Assembly: GCA_944385395.1 (NCBI GenBank)
Contig: CALWXA010000035.1
Coordinates: 1-41,080, forward strand
From: an uncultured Oscillospiraceae bacterium
GTDB lineage: Bacteria; Bacillota; Clostridia; Oscillospirales; Oscillospiraceae
Length of the DNA stretch: 41,080 nt
Direction: 5' to 3'
The translations under genes were made by a program, and so were the position numbers. Below, one piece after another: positions 9,715 through 21,407 of the stretch (its first letter is position 1; each line of letters opens with the position of its first letter). The notes beneath the pieces were generated by a model that worked only from the letters and a program-made list of their open reading frames with translations, had not been told where the DNA came from and did no database searches.

Positions 9715-10440
9715 TCAGGACTGTTCCGTAGGATGCTTCAGGGCGGAAGGGGCCAGGATCAGGGTCAGAAGCCCCACGGCCTTCTGGGTATCCTTTCGAT
9801 CCAATGCGTCCACCAGACGCATATGGTTCCGGGCGCTGGTAAGCTGTCCGGTCTCCGTTTCCTGAATGAAGGTGCTGATGTTTTCCCGGATGCATTTGAG
9901 AAACAGGCTCTGGATGCTGGCGTACATCATCTCATAGAGCTTGTTGTTGGTGCATAGGCTCAGCTGGTAGTGAAAGTCATAGTCCCGCTGGACAAATTCG
10001 TCCAGATCGCCCCGGGCGGCGGCTTCACACAAAAGCTCCCCGCACCGCCGCAGCCGGACCAGCTGCTCCGGCGTGGCCCGGACCACCGCCAGGCGGACGC
10101 AGCTGCGCTCCATGTCTGTGCGGAACTCGTGGAGGTCGGCGCCGATGGTATCCCGGGCGGCCAGCACATCCCCCAGATCCGTGAGGTTGGAAAAGCTCAG
10201 CTCCCGGACGAAGCTGCCTTCGCCCACCCGGATCTCCACAATACCCATGTTGCTCAGCCGCTGCAGCGCCGAACGCACCGAGTTGCGGCTGACCCCGTAG
10301 AGCTGGGCAAGCTGATGCTCCGAGGGCAGCTTGTCCCCGGCGGTGAACTCCCCGTCCACCAGGATCCGCCGCTTCAGGTCTCCAAACACCTGCTGTGTCA
10401 CGCTGGATCGCCGGATCTTCTGTACCGTGGAACTGTCCAT
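9715..10440 (-). CDS. GntR-family (FadR/FCD-type) transcriptional regulator
   Basis: A 241-residue regulator with an N-terminal winged helix-turn-helix (about residues 12-75: VFGDLKRRILVDGEFTAGDKLPSEHQLAQLYGVSRNSVRSALQRLSNMG segment, broken here as PSEHQLAQLYGVSRNSVR) and a C-terminal all-helical FCD ligand domain (about 90-220). In FCD proteins a metal and an organic acid effector bind in that domain; here RDYDFHYQLSL supplies the conserved Asp-x-x-x-His pair. It is divergent from the enolase-superfamily gene, whose promoter carries a matching palindrome, so it is probably its repressor. The start at MDSSTVQK is set by AAAGGAG about ten bases upstream; longer in-frame starts run into the shared promoter region. 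Confidence 0.93.
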   Translation of the reverse strand: MDSSTVQKIRRSSVTQQVFGDLKRRILVDGEFTAGDKLPSEHQLAQLYGVSRNSVRSALQRLSNMGIVEIRVGEGSFVRELSFSNLTDLGDVLAARDTIGADLHEFRTDMERSCVRLAVVRATPEQLVRLRRCGELLCEAAARGDLDEFVQRDYDFHYQLSLCTNNKLYEMMYASIQSLFLKCIRENISTFIQETETGQLTSARNHMRLVDALDRKDTQKAVGLLTLILAPSALKHPTEQS

Positions 10441-10528
10441 AGCCCGGTCTCCTTTCCAATGTTTTTCACCATTATAGCACACCTCCTGCCGCCGTGTCAT
10501 CCAATTTCCCGGCGGGAGAAATCCGGCA

Positions 10529-10557
10529 TTGACACAGGGTGGCGGGCTTGCTACAAT
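10529..10557 (+). promoter_or_regulatory. sigma-A promoter of the enolase-superfamily gene
   Basis: TTGACA at 10529-10534 (perfect), 17-bp spacer, TACAAT at 10552-10557. Transcription would start near 10564. Confidence 0.88.
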
Positions 10558-10568
10558 GAGGCTGTAGG

Positions 10569-10579
10569 TTGTCCTACAA
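10569..10579. promoter_or_regulatory. candidate FCD/GntR operator
   Basis: TTGTCCTACAA is a perfect palindrome around its centre base pair and fits the FadR-subfamily pattern TnGT-N3-ACnA. It begins about five bases after the predicted transcription start, where a bound repressor would block initiation. It also overlaps a second inverted repeat, TGTAGG-N4-CCTACA. Confidence 0.7.
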
Positions 10580-10643
10580 CATACGGAATAAAGGAAACAG
10601 TCGCTGCACATACAGCAGCATGGAAAAAGGAAGGAGCGGCGGT

Positions 10644-11843
10644 ATGAAGATCACCAGCGTGGATATCATCAAGCTATTCAAGAAGCCCAGTGAACAGTGT
10701 GAGATCGGCGTGGCGGGGCCCTGGCATCCCATCATTGTGCGAGTCAATACGGATGAGGGGATCTACGGCTACGGCGAGATCGGCCTGGCCTACGGCATCG
10801 CCCAGAACGCCGGGTATGGCATGGGTATTGACTTTGCCAAGTGCATCATCGGCATGGATCCGCTGGGCAGTGAGGCCATCTGGAACAAGCTTCACCGCCA
10901 GACCTTCTGGGGCATGGGCAACGGCGGCGTCATCATGGCGGGCATCTCCGGTATCGACATCGCCCTGTGGGATATCAAGGGCAAGTACTACAACGCACCG
11001 GTATATCAGCTGCTGGGCGGCAAGACCAACAGCCGCCTGCGCACCTATGCCAGCCAGCTGCAGTTTGACTGGGGTCTGGTGGCCCGGAACCTCAGCGATC
11101 CGGCGGATTATGCCGAGGCTACCCGGAAGGCCATGGCCGACGGCTTTGACTGTGTGAAGGTGGACCCCATCGCCTATGATGAGCACGGCGTATGGTACGG
11201 ACGGAACAACCGGGGCATCCTGCAGCGGGATCAGATCAAGATGGCGGTGGATCGTGTGGCGGCCATGCGGGAGGCCGGCGGCCCGGACCTGGACATCATC
11301 ATCGAGCTCCACGCCCTTACCGACACCAATACATCCATCCAGCTGGGCCAGGAGCTGGAGAAGTTCAACTGCTTCTACTATGAGGAGCCTACCTCGCCCA
11401 TGAATCCGGCCCTGTTCCGGGAGATCTCCGCCAAGGTGAAGATCCCCCTGGCCACCGGTGAGCGGGTCTACAGCCGCTGGGGCTACCGGCCCTTCCTGGA
11501 GGACCGTTCCATTCAGGTGATCCAGCCGGATCTGTGCAACACCGGCGGCATCACCGAGGGCAAGAAGATCTGCGACATGGCCCATGTCTACGACATCGGC
11601 GTGCAGGGGCACTGCTGCGGCTCTCCCATCTCCACCGCTGCCACGCTGCAGCTGGAGGCGGTGATCCCCAACTTCGTAATCCATGAGCTCCACGCCAGCG
11701 CCCTGCTGCCGGACAATATCGCCACCTGCAAGTACAACTATGTGCCCAAGGACGGCTACTATGAGATCCCGGAACTGCCGGGCATCGGTCAGGAACTGAC
11801 AGAGGAAGCCCTGGCCAACAGCGACATCATCACCATTCGATAA
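10644..11843 (+). CDS. mandelate racemase/muconate lactonizing enzyme family protein, galactonate-dehydratase-like
   Basis: A 399-residue enolase-superfamily protein: an N-terminal capping domain (about 1-125) and a TIM barrel. Metal ligands can be assigned as Glu in IIIELHALTD, Glu in YYEEPTSP and Glu in LATGERVYSR; the His in IELHA and the later His in GVQGHCCGSPIS match the general acid/base pattern of D-galactonate dehydratase (DgoD). It probably abstracts the proton alpha to a sugar-acid carboxylate and eliminates water, but the substrate is not fixed by sequence; other acid-sugar dehydratases are possible. Start at MKITSVDI with AAGGAGCGG upstream. It is a single-gene unit divergent from the GntR repressor, with no aldolase or kinase beside it. 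Confidence 0.88.
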   Translation: MKITSVDIIKLFKKPSEQCEIGVAGPWHPIIVRVNTDEGIYGYGEIGLAYGIAQNAGYGMGIDFAKCIIGMDPLGSEAIWNKLHRQTFWGMGNGGVIMAGISGIDIALWDIKGKYYNAPVYQLLGGKTNSRLRTYASQLQFDWGLVARNLSDPADYAEATRKAMADGFDCVKVDPIAYDEHGVWYGRNNRGILQRDQIKMAVDRVAAMREAGGPDLDIIIELHALTDTNTSIQLGQELEKFNCFYYEEPTSPMNPALFREISAKVKIPLATGERVYSRWGYRPFLEDRSIQVIQPDLCNTGGITEGKKICDMAHVYDIGVQGHCCGSPISTAATLQLEAVIPNFVIHELHASALLPDNIATCKYNYVPKDGYYEIPELPGIGQELTEEALANSDIITIR

Positions 11844-11967: not shown

Positions 11968-13395
11968 ATGTCAAAAGATACCTTTTGGAGTCCCTCAGGC
12001 GGAAAAAACAACCGGATCTTCACCAGCCTGCAGGAGGCCTATGATAAGCTGCAATGCATCGTGGACAATTCCTACGACGGCATATATATCACCGATGGCA
12101 ATGCCAACACCCAATGGGTGAATCCTGCGTATCTGTCCATCAGCGGCCTGACGGAAGAGGATGTACTGGGCAAGAACATGTGGGATCTGGAGCGGGAAGG
12201 GATCATCAGCCGCTCCGGCACCCTGCTGGCCATCGCTCAGCGTAAGGCGGTGACCCTGCAGCAGACTTTCCGGACCGGAAAGCGGGCTCTCATCACCAGC
12301 ACCCCCAGCTTTGATGACTACGGTGATATCATGATGGTGGTCACCAATGTCCGGGATATGACGGAATTCTACGCCCTTCAGGAAAAGTACCAGGAGGCCC
12401 AGGAGCGCTACAGCACCGAGATCGAGCTGGCCCGCAAGCAGGTGCTGGAAGGGGCCGACCTCATTGCTGCCGATCCCAATACCCTGTCGGTGCTGCGTCT
12501 GGTGGAGCGGGTGGCCATTCTGGATACCACCGTACTGCTTACCGGCGAGACCGGCGTGGGCAAGGAAAAATTCGCCCGCTACATCTATAAAAACAGCGCC
12601 CGGCGGGAAGAGCGGTTCATCACCGTCAACTGCGGGGCGATTCCCCCCAACCTGGTGGAAAGCGAACTGTTCGGCTATGAAAAAGGTGCCTTTACCGGCG
12701 CCGTCCGGGACAAGATGGGCCTTTTTGAGCTGGCCCACCGGGGCACCATCTTTCTCGATGAGATCGGCGAGCTGCCTCTGGAGATGCAGGTGAAGCTGCT
12801 GCGGGTGCTGCAGGAGCGCCAGATCCAGCGGGTAGGCGGCACCAAGCCGGTGCCGGTGGACGTGCGGGTCATCGCCGCCACCAACCGGGATCTGGGAGAG
12901 ATGGTCCGCAGCAAGAATTTCCGGGAGGATCTATTCTACCGTCTCAATGTGGTGCCCATCACCATCCCGCCCCTGCGGGAGCGCCGGGGGGATATCGTTC
13001 CCTTTGCCGACGCTTTCCTGGAAGAGCTGAACAGGAAGTACGGCTTCAAAAAGGAATTCACCACCTCCGCCCTTCAGGCTATGGAGGAATACAACTGGCC
13101 CGGCAACGTTCGGGAACTGAAAAACGTGGTGGAGCGGGTGGTGATCCTGTCCACGGAGGACAAGATCTGCGCCACGGATCTGCCCTTCTGCTCCCAATGG
13201 TCCCCCATTGGCCATCCTGTCCTGCGGGATGAGCCCATCGACCTGAAGCTGGAAGTGGCCCGGTTTGAGGACCACTACATCCGCCAGGCCTATGAAAAGT
13301 ATGGCAACGTCCGGGACGCTGCTGCCAGCCTGGGGATGGACTCCTCCACCTTCGTCCGCAAACGGCAGAAATACCAACAGTTGCTGCAAAAATGA
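11968..13395 (+). CDS. sigma-54-dependent transcriptional activator (PAS-AAA+-HTH)
   Basis: A 475-residue enhancer-binding protein. Residues about 28-135 form a PAS sensor (IVDNSYDGIYITDGNANTQW, then VNPAYLSISG). A coiled linker follows, then the AAA+ domain (about 165-400) with Walker A GETGVGKEK near 193, the GAFTGA loop at 240-245 that contacts sigma-54, Walker B TIFLDEIGELP, and the arginine-containing ReDLFYRLNV region. The C-terminus has a Fis-type HTH (VRDAAASLGMDSSTFVRKRQKY). The activator most likely binds the palindromes just downstream of its own gene and drives the -24/-12 promoter at 13565. No receiver domain is present, so a small molecule bound by PAS is the likely signal. AGAAGGAGA precedes the start. 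Confidence 0.96.
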   Translation: MSKDTFWSPSGGKNNRIFTSLQEAYDKLQCIVDNSYDGIYITDGNANTQWVNPAYLSISGLTEEDVLGKNMWDLEREGIISRSGTLLAIAQRKAVTLQQTFRTGKRALITSTPSFDDYGDIMMVVTNVRDMTEFYALQEKYQEAQERYSTEIELARKQVLEGADLIAADPNTLSVLRLVERVAILDTTVLLTGETGVGKEKFARYIYKNSARREERFITVNCGAIPPNLVESELFGYEKGAFTGAVRDKMGLFELAHRGTIFLDEIGELPLEMQVKLLRVLQERQIQRVGGTKPVPVDVRVIAATNRDLGEMVRSKNFREDLFYRLNVVPITIPPLRERRGDIVPFADAFLEELNRKYGFKKEFTTSALQAMEEYNWPGNVRELKNVVERVVILSTEDKICATDLPFCSQWSPIGHPVLRDEPIDLKLEVARFEDHYIRQAYEKYGNVRDAAASLGMDSSTFVRKRQKYQQLLQK

Positions 13396-13398
13396 AAC
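13383..13398. promoter_or_regulatory. candidate activator half-site A
   Basis: GCTGCA-N4-TGAAAC: the left half equals the two palindromes downstream; the right half matches at four of six bases. It overlaps the activator stop codon, 18 bp from site B. Confidence 0.45.
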
Positions 13399-13400
13399 AT

Positions 13401-13416
13401 GCTGCAAAATTGCAGC
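13401..13416. promoter_or_regulatory. candidate sigma-54 activator site B
   Basis: Perfect dyad GCTGCA-N4-TGCAGC centred at 13408.5, about 183 bp upstream of the predicted start at the sigma-54 promoter. Confidence 0.7.
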
Positions 13417-13465
13417 GATTGTCAATTTTTTACCAAATAAAGCGCATCAGAAAAATGCCTGGCCT

Positions 13466-13517
13466 GCATCCCCCTGGGATATTGCTGCAAAAATGCAGCA
13501 ATATCCCAGGGGGATGC
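13466..13517. repeat. 52-bp inverted repeat with perfect 24-bp arms
   Basis: The left arm (13466-13489, starting GCATCCCCCTGGG) is an exact reverse complement of the right arm (13494-13517), with a four-base AAAA centre. Its core is activator site C. There is no T-run after it, so it is not a standard terminator, though an RNA copy would fold strongly. Confidence 0.85.
13484..13499. promoter_or_regulatory. candidate sigma-54 activator site C
   Basis: Perfect dyad GCTGCA-N4-TGCAGC centred at 13491.5, 83 bp (about eight helical turns) from site B and about 100 bp upstream of the predicted start. This is the normal distance for an enhancer-binding protein. Confidence 0.72.
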
Positions 13518-13564
13518 CCCATAAGAAGGGCCGAAAGAAGGGGAAAAAGCGGGAATATCGAAAG

Positions 13565-13581
13565 TTGGCACGGGTCTTGCA
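13565..13581 (+). promoter_or_regulatory. sigma-54 (-24/-12) promoter of the 4-hydroxybutyrate operon
   Basis: TTGGCACG at 13565-13572, four bases, TTGCA at 13577-13581: this matches the consensus TTGGCACG-N4-TTGCW at all fixed positions, with the GG and GC pairs ten bases apart. Transcription should begin near 13592. The activator gene and rpoN are both in the window. Confidence 0.92.
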
Positions 13582-13683
13582 TTATAAAAGGGGCAGAGAA
13601 CCTGAGTTTCGGAAGGAGGCCTGTAGGGCGGTTTCCGGATGGAGACAGGGGATCAGAGGAAAATCAGAGAGAGAGGTGTCATC

Positions 13684-15801
13684 ATGGATCAAATGACGAA
13701 AAACACCGGAAAAGTGCGGGTCAGCGCCATTGTATTGGTGGTGTGCCTGCTGGCCATGATCGTTTCGTCCGTCATCGGACAGCAGATCCAGACCAGCGGC
13801 GGCAGCGTCCGCACCGAAGAAATCACCTTTACCACCGACGTGGGAGCAACCAGCCATGCCAAGCTGTACATCCCGGAGACGGCTACTGCTGAAAATCCTG
13901 CTCCGGCTGTGCTGCTGTGCCACGGCTACACCGCATCCCTGGATGCCATGGAACCCAACGCCATTGAGCTTTCCCGCCGGGGCTATGTGGTCATGGCGCT
14001 GGATATGTACGGCCACGGCGAGTCCACCCTGCCGCCTGACGGCTACAGCCAGGTGGAGATGGGCAGCGTGGAGAACTATGCCCCCGACCTGGGCTCCTAC
14101 TCTGCCCTGCAGGAGTTTGCCAAGTATGACTTCGTGGACCTGACCAAGATCGGCATGCTGGGCCACTCCATGGGTACCGCTGCCATTCAGGAAGGCGCTT
14201 ACCTGGCCTATGCCAAGTGGACCAACATCTATAACGCTGCTCTGGCTGAGTACACGGCTTCCGGTATGGATGCTGCTACCGCTGCCGGCGCCGCTTACAT
14301 GGATGCCATGAACGCCGGCATCGTGCTGCCTTCTTCCATGGTTCTGACCGGCTACAACTACAATGTGCGTAACCGAAACGACCTGACCTACATCGGCGTT
14401 ACCGCAGAGAACGGCGTGTTCCCCCTGTATGCCGCTCCTGTGAATATGTGCACCATCCAGGCTACTTACGATGAGTTCTCCGGCTTCCTGTGGGGCGTGG
14501 AGGATTCCAGCCAGTACACCACCAGCTTCAAGTTCGCCTACGGCACCGGCGGCGCCACCAACGTGCCCTCCGGAACTTACTTCATGTACGGCGATGCCAG
14601 CGCTACGCCCCTGACCCGTGAGGAAGCCGTAACTGCCGCTGCCTCCGCCGCCCTGACCATGGTGCCCATCCGGGCTGCCTTCTCCTTCGAGGGCACCCAC
14701 TCCGACACCTACTACGATGAGACGGCCATCAGCTACGGCATCGACTTCCTGGACATCACCCTCCGGGGCGGTGAGAGCACCATCGATCCCACCGATCAGG
14801 TGTGGCACGACCGTGCCGCCTGCGGTCTTGTGGGCCTCATTGCTACCCTGGTAAGCTTCGGGGCTCTGGCTCTCACCCTGCTGAAGGTGCCCTTCTTTGC
14901 CACCATCGTCAAGGCTGAGCCCAAGTCCATCAGCACCTGCGACAAGGGCAGCCATGTGGTGCGCTATGCCATTATCTTCCTCATCTGCCTGGTGGTGGCG
15001 CCCCTGCTGTACTACTTGCTCATCGGTTATCCTTACTACATGCAGCCCCAGTGGTTCATGTTCCAGACCAAGTTCATGCCCAATGAGTTCTTCAACATGG
15101 CGCCCATGAACTCCCTGATGCTGTTCAACCTGGTGGTGGGCGGCATTCTGCTGGTGATCTATGTGGTGGTGTTCCTGATCCAGGGCAGAAAGGACGGCTA
15201 CGGCTGGGAAAATACCGGCCTGAAGCTGCCTGTGGTGCAGGTGCTCAAGAGCCTGCTGCTGGCTGCCATCTCCTTCGGCGTCATCTACGCCGTGGTGTAT
15301 GCCTGCTATGCCTTCTCCGGTACTTACTTCTCCTTCTTCAAGTTCAACATCATGCCTATGGATGCTGCACACTGGGAGGCCTTCTTCAAGTATCTGCCGG
15401 TATGGCTGCTGTTCTTCCTGCTGGTGAGTGTGATCTACAACACCTTCACCCGCATCAACAACGCCCCCGCCTGGGTGAACTATGTGCTCATCGCCATCGC
15501 CTCCTGCGGCGGCCTGGCCATCATGTTCGCCTATGACTACGGTACCCTGTTCGCCACCGGCGTCCGGGGCATCCTGACCATCCCCGGCACCACCTCCGAA
15601 GAGTGGCTGGCTACCGTGGGTATGTCCTTCCCCCCTGCACTGGCTGGCATTATGTGCTTCGGCCTGCTGTTCATCCTGCCCCTGTCTGCCATCGGCAGCC
15701 GGGTGCTGTTCAAGAAGACCGGCTCTGCCTGGTTGGGCGGCTTCCTGACGGCTTTCGTGGTGCTGACCTTCACCATTTCCCACATGGTCATCTCCATCTG
15801 A
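13684..15801 (+). CDS. membrane-bound alpha/beta hydrolase with C-terminal polytopic domain
   Basis: A 705-residue two-part protein. One N-terminal membrane segment (VSAIVLVVCLLAMIVSSVIG) is followed by an outward- or inward-facing serine hydrolase domain (about 40-360): oxyanion region LLCHGYTASLDAM, ALDMYGHGES, nucleophile Ser162 in LGHSMGTAA, and a likely catalytic His339 in EGTHSD. From about residue 380 to the end are roughly seven or eight hydrophobic helices. It is the first gene after the sigma-54 promoter and is followed by 4-hydroxybutyryl-CoA enzymes, which suggests it frees 4-hydroxybutyrate or a related acid from an ester, lactone or amide; this is inference. Start chosen at MDQMTKN with GAGAGAGG upstream; an in-frame ATG at 13639 has little support. 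Confidence 0.85.
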   Translation: MDQMTKNTGKVRVSAIVLVVCLLAMIVSSVIGQQIQTSGGSVRTEEITFTTDVGATSHAKLYIPETATAENPAPAVLLCHGYTASLDAMEPNAIELSRRGYVVMALDMYGHGESTLPPDGYSQVEMGSVENYAPDLGSYSALQEFAKYDFVDLTKIGMLGHSMGTAAIQEGAYLAYAKWTNIYNAALAEYTASGMDAATAAGAAYMDAMNAGIVLPSSMVLTGYNYNVRNRNDLTYIGVTAENGVFPLYAAPVNMCTIQATYDEFSGFLWGVEDSSQYTTSFKFAYGTGGATNVPSGTYFMYGDASATPLTREEAVTAAASAALTMVPIRAAFSFEGTHSDTYYDETAISYGIDFLDITLRGGESTIDPTDQVWHDRAACGLVGLIATLVSFGALALTLLKVPFFATIVKAEPKSISTCDKGSHVVRYAIIFLICLVVAPLLYYLLIGYPYYMQPQWFMFQTKFMPNEFFNMAPMNSLMLFNLVVGGILLVIYVVVFLIQGRKDGYGWENTGLKLPVVQVLKSLLLAAISFGVIYAVVYACYAFSGTYFSFFKFNIMPMDAAHWEAFFKYLPVWLLFFLLVSVIYNTFTRINNAPAWVNYVLIAIASCGGLAIMFAYDYGTLFATGVRGILTIPGTTSEEWLATVGMSFPPALAGIMCFGLLFILPLSAIGSRVLFKKTGSAWLGGFLTAFVVLTFTISHMVISI

Positions 15802-15842
15802 CAGAATAACCAGCATTGAGAACAAAAAAGATGTAACCCTTC

Positions 15843-15871
15843 CCGGGGACGGGCCCCAGGCCCGTCCCCGG
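15843..15871 (+). other. intercistronic GC-rich hairpin
   Basis: CCGGGGACGGGCC (15843-15855), loop CCA, GGCCCGTCCCCGG (15859-15871), a perfect 13-bp stem between the hydrolase and abfD. No U-run follows. It may act as partial terminator, RNA-processing site or 3'/5' stabiliser, setting different levels for the two genes. Confidence 0.7.
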
Positions 15872-15903
15872 CGCAGCAGAACAAAGAAGAAAGGAAGATC
15901 GTT

Positions 15904-17355
15904 ATGGCATTAATGACCGGCGAACAATATATTGAATCCATCCGCAAAATGAACATGCAGGTTTACATGTTCGGCAAAAAGGTGGAGTGTCCCGTGGATG
16001 ACCCCATTCTGCGCCCGTCCCTGAACTCCGTGCGCATGACCTATGATCTGGCCCAGATGCCCGAGTATGAGGACCTGATGACCGCCGTGTCTCCCTACAC
16101 CGGCAAGAAGGTGAACCGATTCACCCATATCCATCAGTCCACCGGCGACCTCATCAAGAAGGTGAAGATGCAGCGTCTGCTGGGTCAGAAGACCGCTGCC
16201 TGCTTCCAGCGCTGCGTGGGCATGGATGCCTTCAACGCCGTGTTCTCCACCACCTATGAGATCGACAAGAAGTACGGCACTTCCTATTTCCAGAACTTCC
16301 AGAAGTTCATGACCTACGTACAGGACAAGGACCTCACCGTGGACGGCGCCATGACCGACGTCAAGGGCGACCGTTCCAAGGCCCCCCATGCTCAGGAGGA
16401 TCCGGATCTGTTCCTGCATGTGGTGGAGCGCCGTCCCGACGGTATCGTGGTCCGGGGCGCCAAGGCCCACCAGACCGGTATCCTCAACTCCCACGAGGTG
16501 CTGGTAATGCCTACCATCTCCATGGGTCCCGACGATAAGGACTATGCTGTGTCCTTTGCTGTCCCCGTGGATACCAAGGGTATCTTCATGATCATCGGCC
16601 GTCAGTCCTGCGACACCCGGAAGCAGGAGAACACCCAGCTGGATGTGGGCAATGCCCAGTTCGGCGGCGTGGAGGCCCTGACCGTGTTTGACGATGTGTT
16701 CGTTCCCAATGACCGCATCTTCCTCAACGGCGAGACCGAGTTCGCCGGCATGATGGTGGAGCGTTTCGCCGGCTATCACCGCCAGAGCTACGGCGGCTGC
16801 AAGGTGGGTGTGGGCGACGTGCTCATCGGTGCCGCTGCCGTGGCTGCCGACTACAACGGCGCTGCCAAGGCCAGCCACATCAAGGATAAGCTCATCGAGA
16901 TGACCCATCTCAACGAGACCCTGTACTGCTGCGGCATTGCCTGCTCCGCTGAGGGCCATCCCACCGAGAGCGGCAACTACATCATCGACCTGCTGCTGGC
17001 CAACGTGTGCAAGCAGAATATCACCCGCTTCCCCTATGAGATCGTGCGTCTGGCTGAGGACATTGCCGGCGGATTGATGGTCACCGCTCCCTCTGAGGCT
17101 GACTTCCGGGATCCCAAGCTGGGCCCGGTCATCGACAAGTATCTCAAGGGCGTGGGCAACGTCTCCACCGAAAACCGTCTGCGCATCATGCGTCTCATTG
17201 AGAACCTGGCTCTGGGTACTGCCGCTGTGGGCTATCGTACCGAGTCCATGCACGGCGCCGGCTCTCCTCAGGCGCAGCGCATCATGATCGCCCGCCAGAG
17301 CAATCTGGAGCACAAGAAGCAGCTGGCCAAGTCCCTGGCCCAGATCAAGGACTAA
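15904..17355 (+). CDS. abfD: 4-hydroxybutyryl-CoA dehydratase / vinylacetyl-CoA delta-isomerase
   Basis: A 483-residue [4Fe-4S]- and FAD-containing enzyme that converts 4-hydroxybutyryl-CoA to crotonyl-CoA by a ketyl-radical mechanism. It matches the Clostridium aminobutyricum enzyme closely over its full length. Cluster ligands are Cys100 and Cys104 (CFQRCVGMDAF), His292 and Cys299 (HRQSYGGCKVG); Tyr296 and Lys300, proposed catalytic residues, are also present. FAD-contact stretches such as VERFAGYHRQ and TESMHGAGSPQAQR are intact. The enzyme is oxygen sensitive, supporting an anaerobic host. AAAGGAAG lies upstream of the start. It follows the hydrolase by 102 bases and precedes nifU by 27. 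The same reaction links GABA or succinate fermentation to butyrate. Confidence 0.97.
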   Translation: MALMTGEQYIESIRKMNMQVYMFGKKVECPVDDPILRPSLNSVRMTYDLAQMPEYEDLMTAVSPYTGKKVNRFTHIHQSTGDLIKKVKMQRLLGQKTAACFQRCVGMDAFNAVFSTTYEIDKKYGTSYFQNFQKFMTYVQDKDLTVDGAMTDVKGDRSKAPHAQEDPDLFLHVVERRPDGIVVRGAKAHQTGILNSHEVLVMPTISMGPDDKDYAVSFAVPVDTKGIFMIIGRQSCDTRKQENTQLDVGNAQFGGVEALTVFDDVFVPNDRIFLNGETEFAGMMVERFAGYHRQSYGGCKVGVGDVLIGAAAVAADYNGAAKASHIKDKLIEMTHLNETLYCCGIACSAEGHPTESGNYIIDLLLANVCKQNITRFPYEIVRLAEDIAGGLMVTAPSEADFRDPKLGPVIDKYLKGVGNVSTENRLRIMRLIENLALGTAAVGYRTESMHGAGSPQAQRIMIARQSNLEHKKQLAKSLAQIKD

Positions 17356-17382
17356 TAAACTCTTTCAAGCGAGGTACTTGTT

Positions 17383-17664
17383 ATGATCCAGGAGATCGAA
17401 AAAGTCATCCACCAACAGATCCGCCCCCAGCTGGCTACCCATGGCGGCAACATACGGGTGCTGAGCTTTGAAGACGGCGTAGTTCGCTTTGAACTGCTGG
17501 GCCGCTGCTCCGGCTGTCCGGCTGCCAACATCACCACGGAAGAGCTGATCCGGGAAACGCTCCGGCAAGAGGTAGCTGCCGTACAAGACGTGGTGCTGGT
17601 GGAAGAGGTGGATGAGGACCTGGTAGCCCAGGCCCGGGCCATCCTCCGCAGGCCCCGGTGCTGA
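17383..17664 (+). CDS. NifU C-terminal-domain iron-sulfur scaffold protein
   Basis: A 93-residue protein made only of the NifU C-terminal domain. Features are IEKVIHQQIRPQLATHGGNI, the strand VVRFELLGRC, and the CxxC pair Cys42/Cys45 in CSGCPAANIT, which bridges a [4Fe-4S] cluster in a dimer. It can assemble or carry clusters to client enzymes. Being directly after abfD, its likely client is the dehydratase cluster, an inference from context. Start at 17383, GAGG upstream. Its TGA overlaps the next ATG by one base (TGATG). Confidence 0.92.
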   Translation: MIQEIEKVIHQQIRPQLATHGGNIRVLSFEDGVVRFELLGRCSGCPAANITTEELIRETLRQEVAAVQDVVLVEEVDEDLVAQARAILRRPRC

Positions 17665-17945
17665 TGACGGCAGGCATCAAATACTGCGGCGGCTGCAACC
17701 CGCGATATGACCGGGGAGCAGCCGCCCGGCAGTTCCAGACTCAGTTTCCGGAGCTGTCCTGTTCTCCCGCCCGGACGGGAGAGCACTATGATCTGCTGCT
17801 GGTGCTGTGCGGCTGTACGGCACGGTGTGCAGATATTGCCGGCCTGGAGGCCTCCAAGGTCTGCTGGGTCTGCAGGCAAGAAGAAATACCCACAGCCGTG
17901 GAGGCGCTGGAGGCCTTGGCACGGCATTCGAATCGCAAGGAGTGA
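17664..17945 (+). CDS. small eight-cysteine protein, function unknown
   Basis: A 93-residue protein I do not recognise. It has eight cysteines at residues 8, 11, 33, 49, 51, 55, 67 and 70. The N-terminal pair is in the motif GIKYCGGCNPRYDRG; the others form CGCTARC and CWVC groups. A hydrophobic strand (YDLLLVLCGC) and a C-terminal helix follow. No signal peptide or membrane helix is seen. It overlaps nifU by one base and abfT by one base (TGATG at both ends), so it is co-translated with them. The cysteine pattern suggests a metal- or cluster-binding accessory or small redox protein for abfD, which is inference. A GTG at 17658 is an alternative start. Confidence 0.8.
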   Translation: MTAGIKYCGGCNPRYDRGAAARQFQTQFPELSCSPARTGEHYDLLLVLCGCTARCADIAGLEASKVCWVCRQEEIPTAVEALEALARHSNRKE

Positions 17946-19240
17946 TGGTTTTGGATTGGAAAGCATATTATGAGGCCCATATTACCGACGCAGCGCAGGC
18001 AGTGCAGCACATCAAATCCGGTGACCGGGTGGTGCTGGGCCATGCGGTAGGCGAGCCTCCCTATCTGGTGGACGCCATGGTGGCCAACGCCGCCGCCTAT
18101 GAAAACGTGGAGATCGTCCACATGGTGGCCAAGGGCAAGGCTGAATACTGCAAGCCGGAGTACGCAAAGAACTTCCGGCACAACGCTATGTTTGTGGGTC
18201 CCACCACCAAGGAGGCCATCGCTCAGGGCAGAGGTGATTTCACCCCCTGCTTCTTCTCAGAGGTGCCCCAGCTGTTTGCCACGGATCTACCTCTGGATGT
18301 GGCCCTGGTACAGGTAACGCCGCCCAATGCGGAGGGCAAGTGCTCCCTGGGCGTATCCGTGGACTACACCCTGCCTGCCATCCGCTGCGCCAAGACCGTC
18401 ATTGCCCAGGTCAATGCCTGCATGCCCTGGACAGAAGGGGAGAGCCTGGTGGATGTGACGGACATTGACTGGTTCGTGCGTCACGATGAACCCATTATCG
18501 CCAACCAGCCTCCCAAAATCGGACCGGTGGAAGAGGCCATCGGCCGGAATGTGGCCTCCCTGGTACCCGACGGCGCCACGCTGCAGCTGGGTATCGGCGC
18601 CATTCCTGACGCTGTGCTGCTGTTCCTGAAACATAAGAAGGATCTGGGCATTCACTCTGAGATGTTCTCCGACGGCGTGGTGGAGCTGGCAGAGGCCGGG
18701 GTCATCACCAACGCCAAGAAGACCCTGCATCCCGGCAAGTATGTGGCCACCTTCCTGATGGGCTCCCAGCGTCTGTATGACTTCGCCAACAACAACCCTG
18801 ACGTCTATATGGCGCCGGTGGACTACGTCAACGATCCCTTTGTCATTGCTCAGAATGACAACATGATCTCCATCAACTCCTGTGTGCAGGTGGATTTCAT
18901 GGGCCAGGTGGCCTCTGAGACCATCGGTCAGACCCAGATCTCCGGTACCGGCGGCCAGGTGGACTTCATCCGGGGCGCTGCCCGCAGCAAGGGCGGCAAG
19001 GCCATCATCGCCATGCCCTCCACCGTAAAGGGAAAGATCTCCAAGATCGTGCCTCAGCTGGACAACGGAGCTGCCGTCACCACTTCCCGCAACGATGTGG
19101 ACTATGTGGTCACCGAATACGGCGTGGCCAAACTGAAAGGCCGTACCCTGCGCCAGCGGGCCCAGGCCCTCATCGCCATTGCCCACCCGGATTTCCGGGA
19201 AGAACTGATGGAAGAGTTCCATCGCCGCTTTCCCGGCTGA
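17945..19240 (+). CDS. abfT: 4-hydroxybutyrate CoA-transferase
   Basis: A 431-residue family I CoA-transferase of the acetyl-CoA hydrolase/transferase type, near the 438 residues known for Clostridium aminobutyricum AbfT (Cat2). It moves CoA from acetyl-CoA or butyryl-CoA to 4-hydroxybutyrate. Glu239 in GIHSEMFSDGVVEL sits where the catalytic glutamate forms the acyl anhydride and CoA thioester. GIGAIPDAVL, ISGTGGQVDFIRGA and the C-terminal VTEYGVAKLKGRTLRQRA are further family motifs. Start at MVLDWKAYY is fixed by the one-base overlap with the preceding stop. With abfD it makes crotonyl-CoA from 4-hydroxybutyrate. No 4-hydroxybutyrate dehydrogenase is in this operon. Confidence 0.94.
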   Translation: MVLDWKAYYEAHITDAAQAVQHIKSGDRVVLGHAVGEPPYLVDAMVANAAAYENVEIVHMVAKGKAEYCKPEYAKNFRHNAMFVGPTTKEAIAQGRGDFTPCFFSEVPQLFATDLPLDVALVQVTPPNAEGKCSLGVSVDYTLPAIRCAKTVIAQVNACMPWTEGESLVDVTDIDWFVRHDEPIIANQPPKIGPVEEAIGRNVASLVPDGATLQLGIGAIPDAVLLFLKHKKDLGIHSEMFSDGVVELAEAGVITNAKKTLHPGKYVATFLMGSQRLYDFANNNPDVYMAPVDYVNDPFVIAQNDNMISINSCVQVDFMGQVASETIGQTQISGTGGQVDFIRGAARSKGGKAIIAMPSTVKGKISKIVPQLDNGAAVTTSRNDVDYVVTEYGVAKLKGRTLRQRAQALIAIAHPDFREELMEEFHRRFPG

Positions 19241-19256
19241 GCCCCAATAAACAACA

Positions 19257-19296
19257 AGAACGTATATGGGACACACCGTCCCATATACGTTCTTTC
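19257..19296 (+). terminator. intrinsic terminator of the 4-hydroxybutyrate operon
   Basis: AGAACGTATATGGGAC (19257-19272), loop ACACC, complementary arm to 19293, then TTTC. The 16-bp stem is perfect. A smaller dyad CCTTAT-TT-ATAAGG follows before the next gene. Confidence 0.88.
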
Positions 19297-19351
19297 TGCG
19301 GCTATTACCCTTATTTATAAGGAACTTTGAACAAAGAAGGAAGAAACAGCT

Positions 19352-20062
19352 ATGTACCCAGCCAAAACCGTGGCCCTGTCTGCCGGAGGAAAGACAGGGA
19401 AGATCCCGTTCCGTGGAGAACTGGCCCTGTGCATTGTAGCGGTGCTCAACAGCTTCGCCGTGGAGCTGATGCTCTACAGCGGAGCCGGAACCTCCTCCAT
19501 CTCCGCAACGCCCTATGCCCTGTCCCTGATCCTTCCGGGACTGAGCCTGGGCACCTGGACGTATATTTTCCAGACGACTCTCGTGGCGGTGCTGATGCTG
19601 CTGCGGAAACGATTCGTACCGGAATATCTGCTGGCCTTTGCGGTGGGGATGGCCTTTAGCAAAATGCTGGATGTACACGCCCTGTGGATGACCCAGCTGC
19701 CTCTGACGCCGCTGCTGCGGTGCGTGTATTTCGCCGTCAGCTTTGCAGCCCTGACGGTAGGCATCGCCCTTTCCAACCACTGTAAGCTGCCCATCATTCC
19801 CACGGACCTTTTTCCCCGGGAACTGGCCCAGATCCTCCGCTGCCCCTATCAGCGGGTGAAGACCCTGTTCGACCTGGGCTGCCTGACGGTGACGGTGGTG
19901 CTGATGGCAGTGTTTGTCCATCATCTGGCAGGCATCGGCGTGGGTACGGTGCTGTGCGCTTTGGCCATGGGCCGCTCCATCGCCTGGATGGGCCGGCAGC
20001 TGGACCGGTATTTCGTATTCCACTCCTTCCTGGAGCGGTCTGCTTCCCGGCAGGCGCTCTGA
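19352..20062 (+). CDS. YczE/YitT-like integral membrane protein
   Basis: A 236-residue membrane protein with about five or six hydrophobic helices: GELALCIVAVLNSFAVELMLY, WTYIFQTTLVAVLMLL, LLAFAVGMAFSKMLD, CVYFAVSFAALTVGIALSN, LFDLGCLTVTVVLMAVFVHH and VGTVLCALAMG. The motif IPTDLFPRELA after the fourth helix resembles the YczE family of unknown function. AAGAAGGAAG stands upstream of the start. It follows the operon terminator by under 60 bases and meets rpoN tail to tail with a seven-base gap. A link to 4-hydroxybutyrate metabolism is possible only from position; substrate and function are unknown. Confidence 0.75.
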   Translation: MYPAKTVALSAGGKTGKIPFRGELALCIVAVLNSFAVELMLYSGAGTSSISATPYALSLILPGLSLGTWTYIFQTTLVAVLMLLRKRFVPEYLLAFAVGMAFSKMLDVHALWMTQLPLTPLLRCVYFAVSFAALTVGIALSNHCKLPIIPTDLFPRELAQILRCPYQRVKTLFDLGCLTVTVVLMAVFVHHLAGIGVGTVLCALAMGRSIAWMGRQLDRYFVFHSFLERSASRQAL

Positions 20063-20069
20063 CAGACCT

Positions 20070-21407
20070 TCAGTGCTTCCGGCCGGAAGCGCTGGGGATC
20101 TGCAGCTGACTGCGGTATTTGGCCACAGTCCTGCGGGAGACCGGATATCCGGCGGCGGTGAGCTGCCGGCTCAGGGCCTCGTCGGACAGTGGCTGTTCCT
20201 CTGCTGCGATCAGTTGCCGCAAGGCCTCCTTTACCTCCTGGGCGGAGGTGTCGCTGTCCTGATTGGCCTCCAGACGGCGGGGGAAGAAAAAGCTCAGGGG
20301 ATAGAGCCCCCGGCTGCACTGGAGATATTTATCCTTCAAAGCACGGCTCACCGTGGATTCATGGACCCCCAGATGTTCCGCTACAGCCGCCATGGTCAGC
20401 GGCTGGGGATGAGGCTGGTCCAGCAGGAAAAAGGCCTTCTGCCGCTGGGCAATATACCGGGCGCAGCGAAGGATGGTGTCGCTGCGCTGGCAGATGGTCT
20501 GCTGCAGCCAGGTGGCCTGCTTGAGCCGGTCATTGAGATAGGCTTTCACTTCCGGCCCGTGATCTTCCTGCAGCAGACCCAGATAGTAGGAGTTGAAGTG
20601 CAGGGAGGGGGCCGGGTCCCGATACAGCTGTACCGCAAGCTCGCTGCCCTCCCGGGTAATGAGAATGTCGGGCACCACATAGGCAGTGGCGGAGCCTCCG
20701 GCAAAGGCCAGTCCCGGCCGGGGATTCAGGGCCCGGATCCGCTGACAGCTCTGACGCACCTGGTCTTCCGTACACTGGAGGGCCTTGGCAATGTGGTGGT
20801 AGTGGTGCCGGGACAGATGCTCCAGATACTCTCCTGCGATGGTCACCGCCAGGGTGTCCACCGGCTCCTGAGCGAGCAGCTGCAGCTGCAGGCAATGGGC
20901 AAAACCCCGGGCGCCTACGCCCACAGGGTCCAGAGACTGGATGATCTCCAGCGCCTGCTCCAGCAGGGGCAGGGGGAAGGCGGAGGCCCGGGCCAGTTCC
21001 GGCAGCGGTTCATCCAGCCAGCCGCTGGGGCACAGGCTGGAGATCAGGAAGATGCAGGCGGCATACAGCGGCGCAGACATGGAGGATTCGTCCAGCTGTC
21101 CCAGCAGGTGGCGGTACAGAGACTCCTGTTCCCACTGCTGGTCAGGGATCATGCGTTCCTTTTCCTCGCTCTCATGCTGATAGCTGCGGTTCTGGGGATC
21201 GCTGGCGTACAGCCACTGCAGCCGCTCCGCCAGCTCCGGCTCCGGAGCCGGGCCCTGGGGCTCGTCCCGGTCCAGAAGAGGGTTTTCCGCCAGGACATTG
21301 TCCAGATATTCAGAAAGCTCCTGAGCGTTCATCTGCAGAAGCTCCATGGACTGGATCATCTGGGGTGCAATGGTCTGTATTTGCTTTTGGGTGATCTGCA
21401 GATCCAT
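20070..21407 (-). CDS. rpoN: RNA polymerase sigma-54 factor
   Basis: A 445-residue sigma-54. Region I is the Gln/Leu-rich N-terminus (MDLQITQKQIQTIAPQM, then QSMELLQMNAQELSEYL). Region II is acidic (about 45-110). Region III has core-binding helices with LDPVGVGARGF, and the HTH MAAVAEHLGVHESTVSRALK. The C-terminal RpoN box is SRRTVAKYRSQLQIP, which reads the -24 GG element; the canonical form is ARRTVAKYR. It recognises the promoter at 13565 and needs an AAA+ activator such as that at 11968. Start at MDLQITQ with AAAGGAGGG upstream. rpoN being this close to one of its target operons and activators is unusual and suggests a self-contained module, though it may serve other promoters. Confidence 0.96.
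   Translation of the reverse strand: MDLQITQKQIQTIAPQMIQSMELLQMNAQELSEYLDNVLAENPLLDRDEPQGPAPEPELAERLQWLYASDPQNRSYQHESEEKERMIPDQQWEQESLYRHLLGQLDESSMSAPLYAACIFLISSLCPSGWLDEPLPELARASAFPLPLLEQALEIIQSLDPVGVGARGFAHCLQLQLLAQEPVDTLAVTIAGEYLEHLSRHHYHHIAKALQCTEDQVRQSCQRIRALNPRPGLAFAGGSATAYVVPDILITREGSELAVQLYRDPAPSLHFNSYYLGLLQEDHGPEVKAYLNDRLKQATWLQQTICQRSDTILRCARYIAQRQKAFFLLDQPHPQPLTMAAVAEHLGVHESTVSRALKDKYLQCSRGLYPLSFFFPRRLEANQDSDTSAQEVKEALRQLIAAEEQPLSDEALSRQLTAAGYPVSRRTVAKYRSQLQIPSASGRKH

Follow-up and report, generated by a model that had tools for sequence, protein, structure and literature searches.

In the draft genome of an uncultured Oscillospiraceae bacterium (assembly GCA_944385395.1), sigma-54 looks captive to one operon, which is predicted to serve the use of 4-hydroxybutyrate (4HB). 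The sole RpoN of the assembly, its sole sigma-54 enhancer-binding protein (EBP, the activator) and its sole intergenic sigma-54 promoter of exact consensus all lie within the same 9.5 kb, at positions 11968-21407 of the stretch of 41,080 nucleotides analyzed here (contig CALWXA010000035.1; hereafter the window). We consider a self-contained, one-operon sigma-54 switch for 4HB use to be the probable explanation of the locus as a whole. The original prediction had proposed such a self-contained module, consisting of a PAS-type EBP, two matching dyads, a full-consensus -24/-12 promoter, abfD, abfT, accessory genes and rpoN. All of these elements were present, both dyads and the promoter as exact matches, and the proposal of a self-contained module was supported.

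The source assembly (G000) is a 1.985 Mb draft with an estimated completeness of 92.8%. Across it, only one gene matched Sigma54_DBD and only one matched Sigma54_activat at the strength of an EBP, while three more matches were weak (25-30 bits). The promoter pattern TTGGCACN5TTGCW occurred exactly at three places, and the two besides that of the window sit within open frames; on visual inspection, one of these was recognized as an ABC permease and the other as ClpC. Thus, within the assembled sequence and for exact matches, sigma-54 has a single visible client. The single-promoter result refers to the exact consensus; among promoters departing from it, one place was read in context, a near-promoter on contig C15, and it was rejected as a further sigma-54 site together with near-dyads on C15 and C72, all of which lie inside open frames. 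Loose promoter matches alone were not enriched: the window held 7 at up to two mismatches, compared with 7.3 expected, and the genome held 19 (9+10) at up to one mismatch, hardly more than the 12 (6+6) of the reversed pattern used as a control. The possibility that the promoter of the window is a chance match was rejected because it is exact, well placed and conserved in relatives.

The activator gene (11968-13395, plus strand) encodes PAS, Sigma54_activat (1e-71), AAA lid and Fis-type helix-turn-helix domains, and its product carries the GAFTGA loop, the Walker A motif and the C-terminal helix-turn-helix of an EBP. Judged by its sequence, this protein is a relative of the abfD-linked activators of other genomes, and it is XanR-like by gene order. 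Between the activator and the next gene, the dyad GCTGCAN4TGCAGC occurs exactly at 13401-13416 (GCTGCAAAATTGCAGC) and at 13484-13499. In a motif scan, the first of these formed, together with a degenerate dyad at 13383, a set of putative upstream activator sites (13381-13416), and the second exact dyad (TTGCTGCAAAAATGCAGCAA) forms the center of an inverted repeat (13466-13517) whose 24-nt arms match perfectly across a 4-nt gap. The promoter, TTGGCACGGGTCTTGCA, follows at 13565-13581 on the plus strand. The loose dyad is common: allowing two mismatches, the window has 13 places (shuffle mean 4.8), and allowing one mismatch, the whole assembly has 33 (reversed control 1), and for this reason only exact, A/T-rich sites were counted. 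The only other exact dyads of the assembly lie on contig C73, with identical sequence and 111 bp apart. That region (G000:C73 10165-10405) holds three near-identical GCTGCATACCTGCAGC-type sites at a spacing of 111-114 bp and has the look of a tandem repeat. We also observed that the palindrome at 13466-13517 exceeds the length that an activator dyad needs; the corresponding region contains perfect palindromes of 16-19 nt in loci L004, L007 and L016 and none in L024.

The genes behind the promoter all lie on the plus strand. The first encodes a membrane alpha/beta-hydrolase (13684-15801, with the start probably at 13684 and not at the mechanical open reading frame (ORF) start of 13639), in which an N-terminal transmembrane-like helix and a hydrolase domain are followed by about nine hydrophobic segments. 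Its likely catalytic residues, H80, S162 (in GHSMG) and H339, are conserved in four homologs, and its profile and fold matches, obtained with poor models, are esterase-type and include polyethylene terephthalate hydrolases and dienelactone hydrolases. The second gene, abfD (15904-17355), encodes a 4-hydroxybutyryl-CoA dehydratase-like protein that matches 1U8V nearly from end to end (3.8e-239). We take C99, C103, H292 and C299 to be the [4Fe-4S] ligands of the AbfD family, and the AbfD of the window keeps C100, C104, H292 and C299. It is followed by a NifU-like domain protein (17383-17664), by a small Cys-rich ORF (17673-17945) without a match in Pfam or NCBIfam, which by gene order is the hyp of the abfD-nifU-hyp-abfT block, and by an AbfT-like 4-hydroxybutyrate CoA-transferase (17951-19240) that matches 3EH7 and 3GK7. 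AbfT retains Glu237 within GIHSEM, presumably the catalytic residue of 4-hydroxybutyrate CoA-transferase, and it scored 325 bits on the NCBIfam butyryl-CoA:acetate model, below the cut-off of 675. Homology therefore supports the predicted chemistry, in which AbfT and AbfD would turn 4HB into crotonyl-CoA.

A strong stem-loop with an 18-bp stem (19256-19294) was found 3' of abfT in a structure scan. It is a possible terminator of the operon, a tentative call because the scan detected a T-run for the minus strand alone. The next gene, a DUF6198 membrane protein (19352-20062, plus strand; domain match), is probably outside the operon. The module ends with rpoN (20070-21407, minus strand), whose product has the activator-interacting, core-binding and DNA-binding domains and scored 373.8 bits on TIGR02395 (cut-off 277). 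Just 5' of the module, at 9715-11843, a GntR/FCD regulator is divergent from a mandelate-racemase/galactonate-dehydratase-like gene, and this pair seems unrelated to it.

In the mechanism that we propose, the PAS activator would respond to a small molecule, with 4HB or one of its products as the most likely ligand, and would bind at TTGYTGC-N6-GCARCAA sites that precede the promoter by about 65-185 bp. The bound activator would then trigger open-complex formation by RNA polymerase-sigma-54 at the only -24/-12 promoter and turn on hydrolase-abfD-nifU-hyp-abfT. Outside the membrane, the membrane hydrolase would cleave an ester or lactone and so release 4HB or a different short hydroxyacid; AbfT would load CoA on 4HB; and AbfD, an Fe-S/FAD enzyme perhaps matured with NifU, would yield crotonyl-CoA, with the flux directed toward butyrate. 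Because the activator and the intergenic exact promoter are the only ones found, sigma-54 would serve essentially this operon in the source organism, presumably without other targets even in the unassembled part of the genome.

To place the module among its relatives, we used the best 80 of at least 550 confirmed abfD relatives, with flanks of up to 10 kb, many of them shorter. An activator-like gene was located upstream of abfD, on the same strand and within 6.5 kb, in 35 of the 80 loci. In 29 of these 35, as in the window, the stretch between activator and abfD contains a promoter that deviates from the pattern at no more than one position, and the scan of all activator-abfD stretches (53.9 kb) returned 30 matches to the pattern and 0 to its reversed form. 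Loci with both activator and promoter at abfD include those of Oscillospiraceae, Christensenella, Eubacterium, Clostridium tetanomorphum, a Peptoniphilaceae metagenome-assembled genome (MAG), Sedimentibacter and Treponema. The activators of L017, L019, L029, L030 and L033 fall outside the tree group of the window, so the 35 are not all close orthologs. In addition, the site TTGYTGCN6GCARCAA was found with up to three mismatches in 19 of the 30 activator-promoter gaps, compared with a shuffle mean of 1.9 and a maximum of 4, and it is exact in C. tetanomorphum (L069). It is missing from the other 11 gaps, including that of L024, where the alignment still shows a related site.

The six loci with an activator in which no -24/-12 promoter was found between activator and abfD (L020, L026, L028, L035, L040 and L077) all have an activator that has lost the GAFTGA loop, whereas the loop reads GAFTGA or GSFTGA in the 28 readable cases among the 29 promoter-bearing loci (that of L010 is unreadable). 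Loss of the loop together with loss of contact to sigma-54 is known for TyrR, DhaR and HupR, according to a passage of PMC3162934, and the loop-less abfD activators are likely to be sigma-70-type regulators. Among three of their genomes that were examined, two are without RpoN and one has two RpoNs. Repeated loss of the loop was unsupported, as the six loop-less activators form one clade (support 86, not starred).

The second line of evidence concerns the position of rpoN. We used a set of 60 genomes (the source genome and 59 relatives; EBP threshold 1e-30), in which RpoN was found in 11, an EBP in 15 and an abfD-type gene in 12 (a figure that counts one 42% relative), and a set of 50 abfD genomes picked from the 80 loci (EBP threshold 1e-45), in which RpoN was found in 41 and an EBP in 42. 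The two sets contain 54 RpoNs, or 52 without two duplicates; the RpoN of G009, a genome without an EBP, and 21 RpoNs in genomes with five or more, incompletely listed EBPs were left out of the linkage test. In genomes with 1-5 EBPs, 17 of 30 RpoNs lie within 20 kb of an EBP, where 1.15 were expected, and in 8 of the 11 one-EBP genomes RpoN lies within 20 kb of the sole EBP, where 0.2 were expected. Two species of Christensenella, together with a close relative, are among the eight linked genomes, and the independent events are therefore fewer than the counts. Christensenella hongkongensis and Christensenella intestinihominis each gave one EBP, which has both abfD and rpoN inside 20 kb. An abfD gene is also nearby in six of the eight, namely the window, three Christensenella, a Peptoniphilaceae MAG (L037) and the Eubacterium MAG RUI314 (L063).

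Several of these loci illustrate how compact the arrangement can be. Genome G074 encodes RpoN twice, and each copy is accompanied by an EBP of its own at a distance of about 7 kb and by an abfD-family gene: the first module (L024) holds the hydrolase and abfD, with rpoN directly after abfD, and the second (L191; G074:C14 6585-15064) holds an EBP, a type III CoA-transferase, an abfD-family gene that keeps all four cluster residues, a short-chain fatty acid transporter, an SDR-like gene and rpoN. In L063, rpoN begins about 25 bp after abfD and behind the promoter, so that sigma-54 may drive its own gene there. In the same-genus genome G005, RpoN, EBP, promoter, SSS symporter, AbfT, a gene that we take to be DUF169, AbfD and an acyl-CoA dehydrogenase are found in this order within 9.8 kb; its activator is only 45% like that of the window.

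The EBP-linked RpoNs are dispersed over the RpoN tree, with 14 changes of state, at least 8 of them forced by starred branches. A common origin of these RpoNs was rejected, since they clustered no better than shuffles (167 of 500 were as low); in this test, RpoNs from genomes with incompletely listed EBPs may be miscalled as unlinked. The score of the RpoN DNA-binding domain increases with the number of EBPs (Spearman 0.75, n=47, with relatedness ignored and two E-value cut-offs mixed), as would be expected if one-client sigma factors diverge. An old neighborhood of rpoN with rlmB-dprA-topA was also considered and was not seen in nine same-genus rpoN loci (in L103, rpoN is at the contig start). 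Outside the abfD context, the sole RpoN and sole EBP of the same-genus genome G002 lie 2.5 kb apart (L102; G002:C11 3132-11788) among proline-racemase-like, Na+/H+-antiporter and lyase genes, and this genome has no abfD match. At L189 (G086:C34 3292-11579), an EBP is divergent from a series of MFS, X-Pro-peptidase-like hydrolase, amidohydrolase-like and BKACE-like genes that ends in rpoN, the amidohydrolase-like and BKACE-like names being recognized by eye; this is perhaps another captive sigma-54 cassette.

One alternative explanation is that the locus is an ordinary XanR regulon, in which chance or local history has placed rpoN close by and sigma-54 has further targets that the assembly does not show. 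In Table 1 of Nie et al. 2019 (PMC6615313), XanR is listed as controlling abfD-nifU-hyp-ach-golB in Clostridium under butyrate/butanol synthesis, the 57 genomes of that paper being given with one sigL each and 1 to 35 EBPs, and a passage of PMC12316311 gives COG2368, which includes 4-hydroxybutyryl-CoA dehydratase, as sigma-54-regulated primarily in Clostridia. With these published statements, and with activator and promoter at 29 of 35 loci, dedicated sigma-54 control of abfD, the central novelty put forward in the original prediction, proved to be already known. The window shares with the XanR regulon, as tabulated there, the abfD-nifU-hyp-ach order, the sigma-54 promoter and the EBP, and it differs in having the hydrolase first, DUF6198 and not golB after abfT, a sole EBP, and rpoN in the cluster. 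By its EBP and its promoter at abfD-nifU-hyp-abfT, it can be counted as a member of the XanR regulon, an identity drawn from gene order. This identical gene order, the position of rpoN away from abfD in most abfD loci, and the 92.8% completeness of the assembly all favor the ordinary-regulon explanation. However, the assembly has a single EBP in 1.99 Mb, and the linkage of rpoN to an EBP is far above expectation and scattered over the RpoN tree. We regard an ordinary XanR regulon as unlikely. Linkage of rpoN to abfD was not described in the open-access literature searched, which for PMC6615313, PMC3162934 and PMC12316311 comprised passages of the papers; searches for rpoN beside a lone or clustered activator likewise gave no paper, and it is the packing of rpoN and activator with the operon that seems to be the new part.

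Some observations weigh against a captive, self-contained switch. First, the assembly is in 104 contigs, and the rpoN of the window is convergent with the operon and lies outside it. Second, the original prediction had set linkage of activator and rpoN to abfD in relatives as its test; the outcome was split, with an activator upstream in 35 of 80 loci and rpoN within the fetched flanks of only 7 of the 80. The one-EBP genomes G031, G034 and G060 carry rpoN on another contig, an EBP was found without RpoN in 5 of the 60 genomes (G001, G007, G021, G025 and G029), and RpoN was found without an EBP in one of them (G009). In addition, no RpoN was found in G108 (L019), where abfD has a promoter and an activator that retains the loop. 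Third, the linked activators of L047 and L063 belong to another clade than that of the window, which means that the architecture recurs and not that one orthologous set is kept, and the loss of the loop counts as one event. Fourth, the closest abfD relative (L002, 92%) is without activator and hydrolase in its flanks, and in L024 2.8 kb and an extra ORF separate activator and hydrolase. Finally, the hydrolase models are poor, with mean pLDDT values of 45 and 58; a fold search with the whole model was abandoned for this reason, and the domain model gave only matches to esterases and dienelactone hydrolases at a TM-score of about 0.3.

A different question is where the 4HB comes from. In Clostridium aminobutyricum and Clostridium kluyveri, the textbook route runs via 4HB made from gamma-aminobutyrate (GABA) or succinate. 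The window resembles the GABA fermentation of C. aminobutyricum (1U8V, 3GK7) in AbfD, AbfT and their key residues, whereas its locus is without a 4HB dehydrogenase and has the sigma-54 switch and the membrane hydrolase. The operon could mainly use 4HB that the cell itself produces from GABA or succinate; the dehydrogenase gene would then lie at another place in the genome, and the hydrolase would be an unrelated envelope enzyme. We hold this to be improbable. An iron-containing alcohol dehydrogenase (Fe-ADH) stands near abfD in 18 of the 80 loci, Christensenella included, a point in favor of internal 4HB; these enzymes were called 4HB-dehydrogenase type from their place, and the one member scanned reached no NCBIfam cut-off. 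The absence of a 4HB dehydrogenase, another feature of the original prediction, held within the locus, where none was found; for the genome it was qualified by one strong Fe-ADH (C2), which scored 183 bits on the NCBIfam 4HB-dehydrogenase model (cut-off 500). This is higher than the 107 bits of the abfD-linked enzyme on the same model, which again favors internal 4HB. Against it, the C2 enzyme is not near abfD, is only 28% identical to the abfD-linked enzyme, and is closest to the AdhE (414 bits) and FucO (299 bits) models, both below their cut-offs, and the other Fe-ADH match of the genome, a weak one, belongs to a frame that looks like AroB. None of the Fe-ADH matches of the source genome is of the abfD-linked type; other dehydrogenase families were not searched.

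The distribution of the hydrolase also argues against internal 4HB. As predicted, it is placed first, and it is rare, being found in 3 of the 80 abfD loci: L016 (77%), L024 (76-77%) and a Treponema (L049, 34-36%). The order EBP-hydrolase-abfD is retained in the first two, both Oscillospiraceae MAGs, and the gene sits 3' of abfD in Treponema. No full-length match was found in the 59 other genomes of the first set, where G035 gave one partial match of 38%. At other loci, the promoter is followed first by an AhlS/AiiA-type lactonase, a PurT-like permease, the SSS symporter of G005 or directly by abfD. An acyl-homoserine lactone/AiiA-type lactonase lies between the sigma-54 promoter and abfD in Eubacterium barkeri (L022, 2900-3712; assigned by profile scan) and Eubacterium aggregans (L025, 9140-9952; assigned by clustering), and it may be a gamma-butyrolactonase. 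By clustering, the permease is first in seven loci (L004, L007, L013, L018, L037, L051 and L052), and that of L037 is related to PurT (7TAK). As a side observation, the permease cluster (L004 8355-9860, L037 8337-9863 and 11 further loci) is a frequent neighbor of abfD, and its scanned members had no Pfam or NCBIfam match above cut-off. Because a hydrolase, lactonase or permease often stands first behind the promoter, preformed 4HB, taken up or released, is suggested as the substrate. Agrobacterium blcABC, a gamma-butyrolactone operon, likewise has a lactonase-type hydrolase as the entry to 4HB, followed by aerobic oxidation via succinic semialdehyde under control of a repressor. Its entry lactonase compares with those of the two Eubacterium loci, and the hydrolase of the window has another fold.

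That AbfD is mainly a vinylacetyl-CoA isomerase or acts on another hydroxyacyl-CoA, so that the substrate of the operon is not 4HB, is quite unlikely: such a function is favored by the solved vinylacetyl-CoA isomerase 6VJR within the AbfD family (626 bits, compared with 797 for 1U8V) and by the second abfD-family gene of G074, whose neighbors encode a type III CoA-transferase and also a transporter for short-chain fatty acids, but the nearest solved relatives of AbfD and AbfT are named 4HB or GABA-pathway enzymes, an abfT-like gene is near abfD in 46 of the 80 loci, and the cluster residues of AbfD are kept, although their presence in the 60% paralog of G074 means that they do not separate substrates.

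Sigma-54 systems with one EBP are known, and Borrelia Rrp2 is one of them. The window is like Chlamydia trachomatis and Lactobacillus plantarum, for which a passage of PMC3162934 gives one activator for sigma-54 per genome; it has activator, sites, operon and rpoN within 9.5 kb and an acid-fermentation operon as its target, the known systems being compared by their number of activators. The two modules of G074 recall Cereibacter sphaeroides, in which, as stated in part of PMC11999139, the pairs RpoN1-NifA, RpoN2-FleQ and RpoN3-AprX provide one RpoN per activator and gene set. Those are proteobacterial paralogs within one genome, whereas the Clostridia analyzed here mostly show a single RpoN beside one operon.

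More tentatively, it is quite possible that sigma-54 has ceased to be a shared factor in many Clostridia with small genomes and is instead held captive within a catabolic cassette, in which rpoN and a single activator are joined by the sites of this activator and by one operon for acid fermentation. Such cassettes would have been repeatedly assembled or transferred, mostly with 4HB operons, also with abfD-paralog/CoA-transferase operons and others, and could occur twice in a genome; captive RpoNs, reading one promoter, would diverge faster, and loss of the activator loop would take the promoter with it. The usual description of sigma-54 is that of a factor shared among several activators. A lineage in which a single sigma-54, a single activator and a single promoter lie together would be a minimal natural system for studying what an alternative sigma factor costs and how it is lost or transferred, and the abfD loci, with the loop kept beside a promoter or lost without one and with rpoN near or far, would be a natural series for studying the exit from sigma-54 control. 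Our findings also suggest that some such bacteria form butyrate precursors from preformed 4HB or 4HB esters, which could bear on the observation, in a passage of PMC5715108, that abfD recruits more metagenome reads than other genes of the 4-aminobutyrate pathway.

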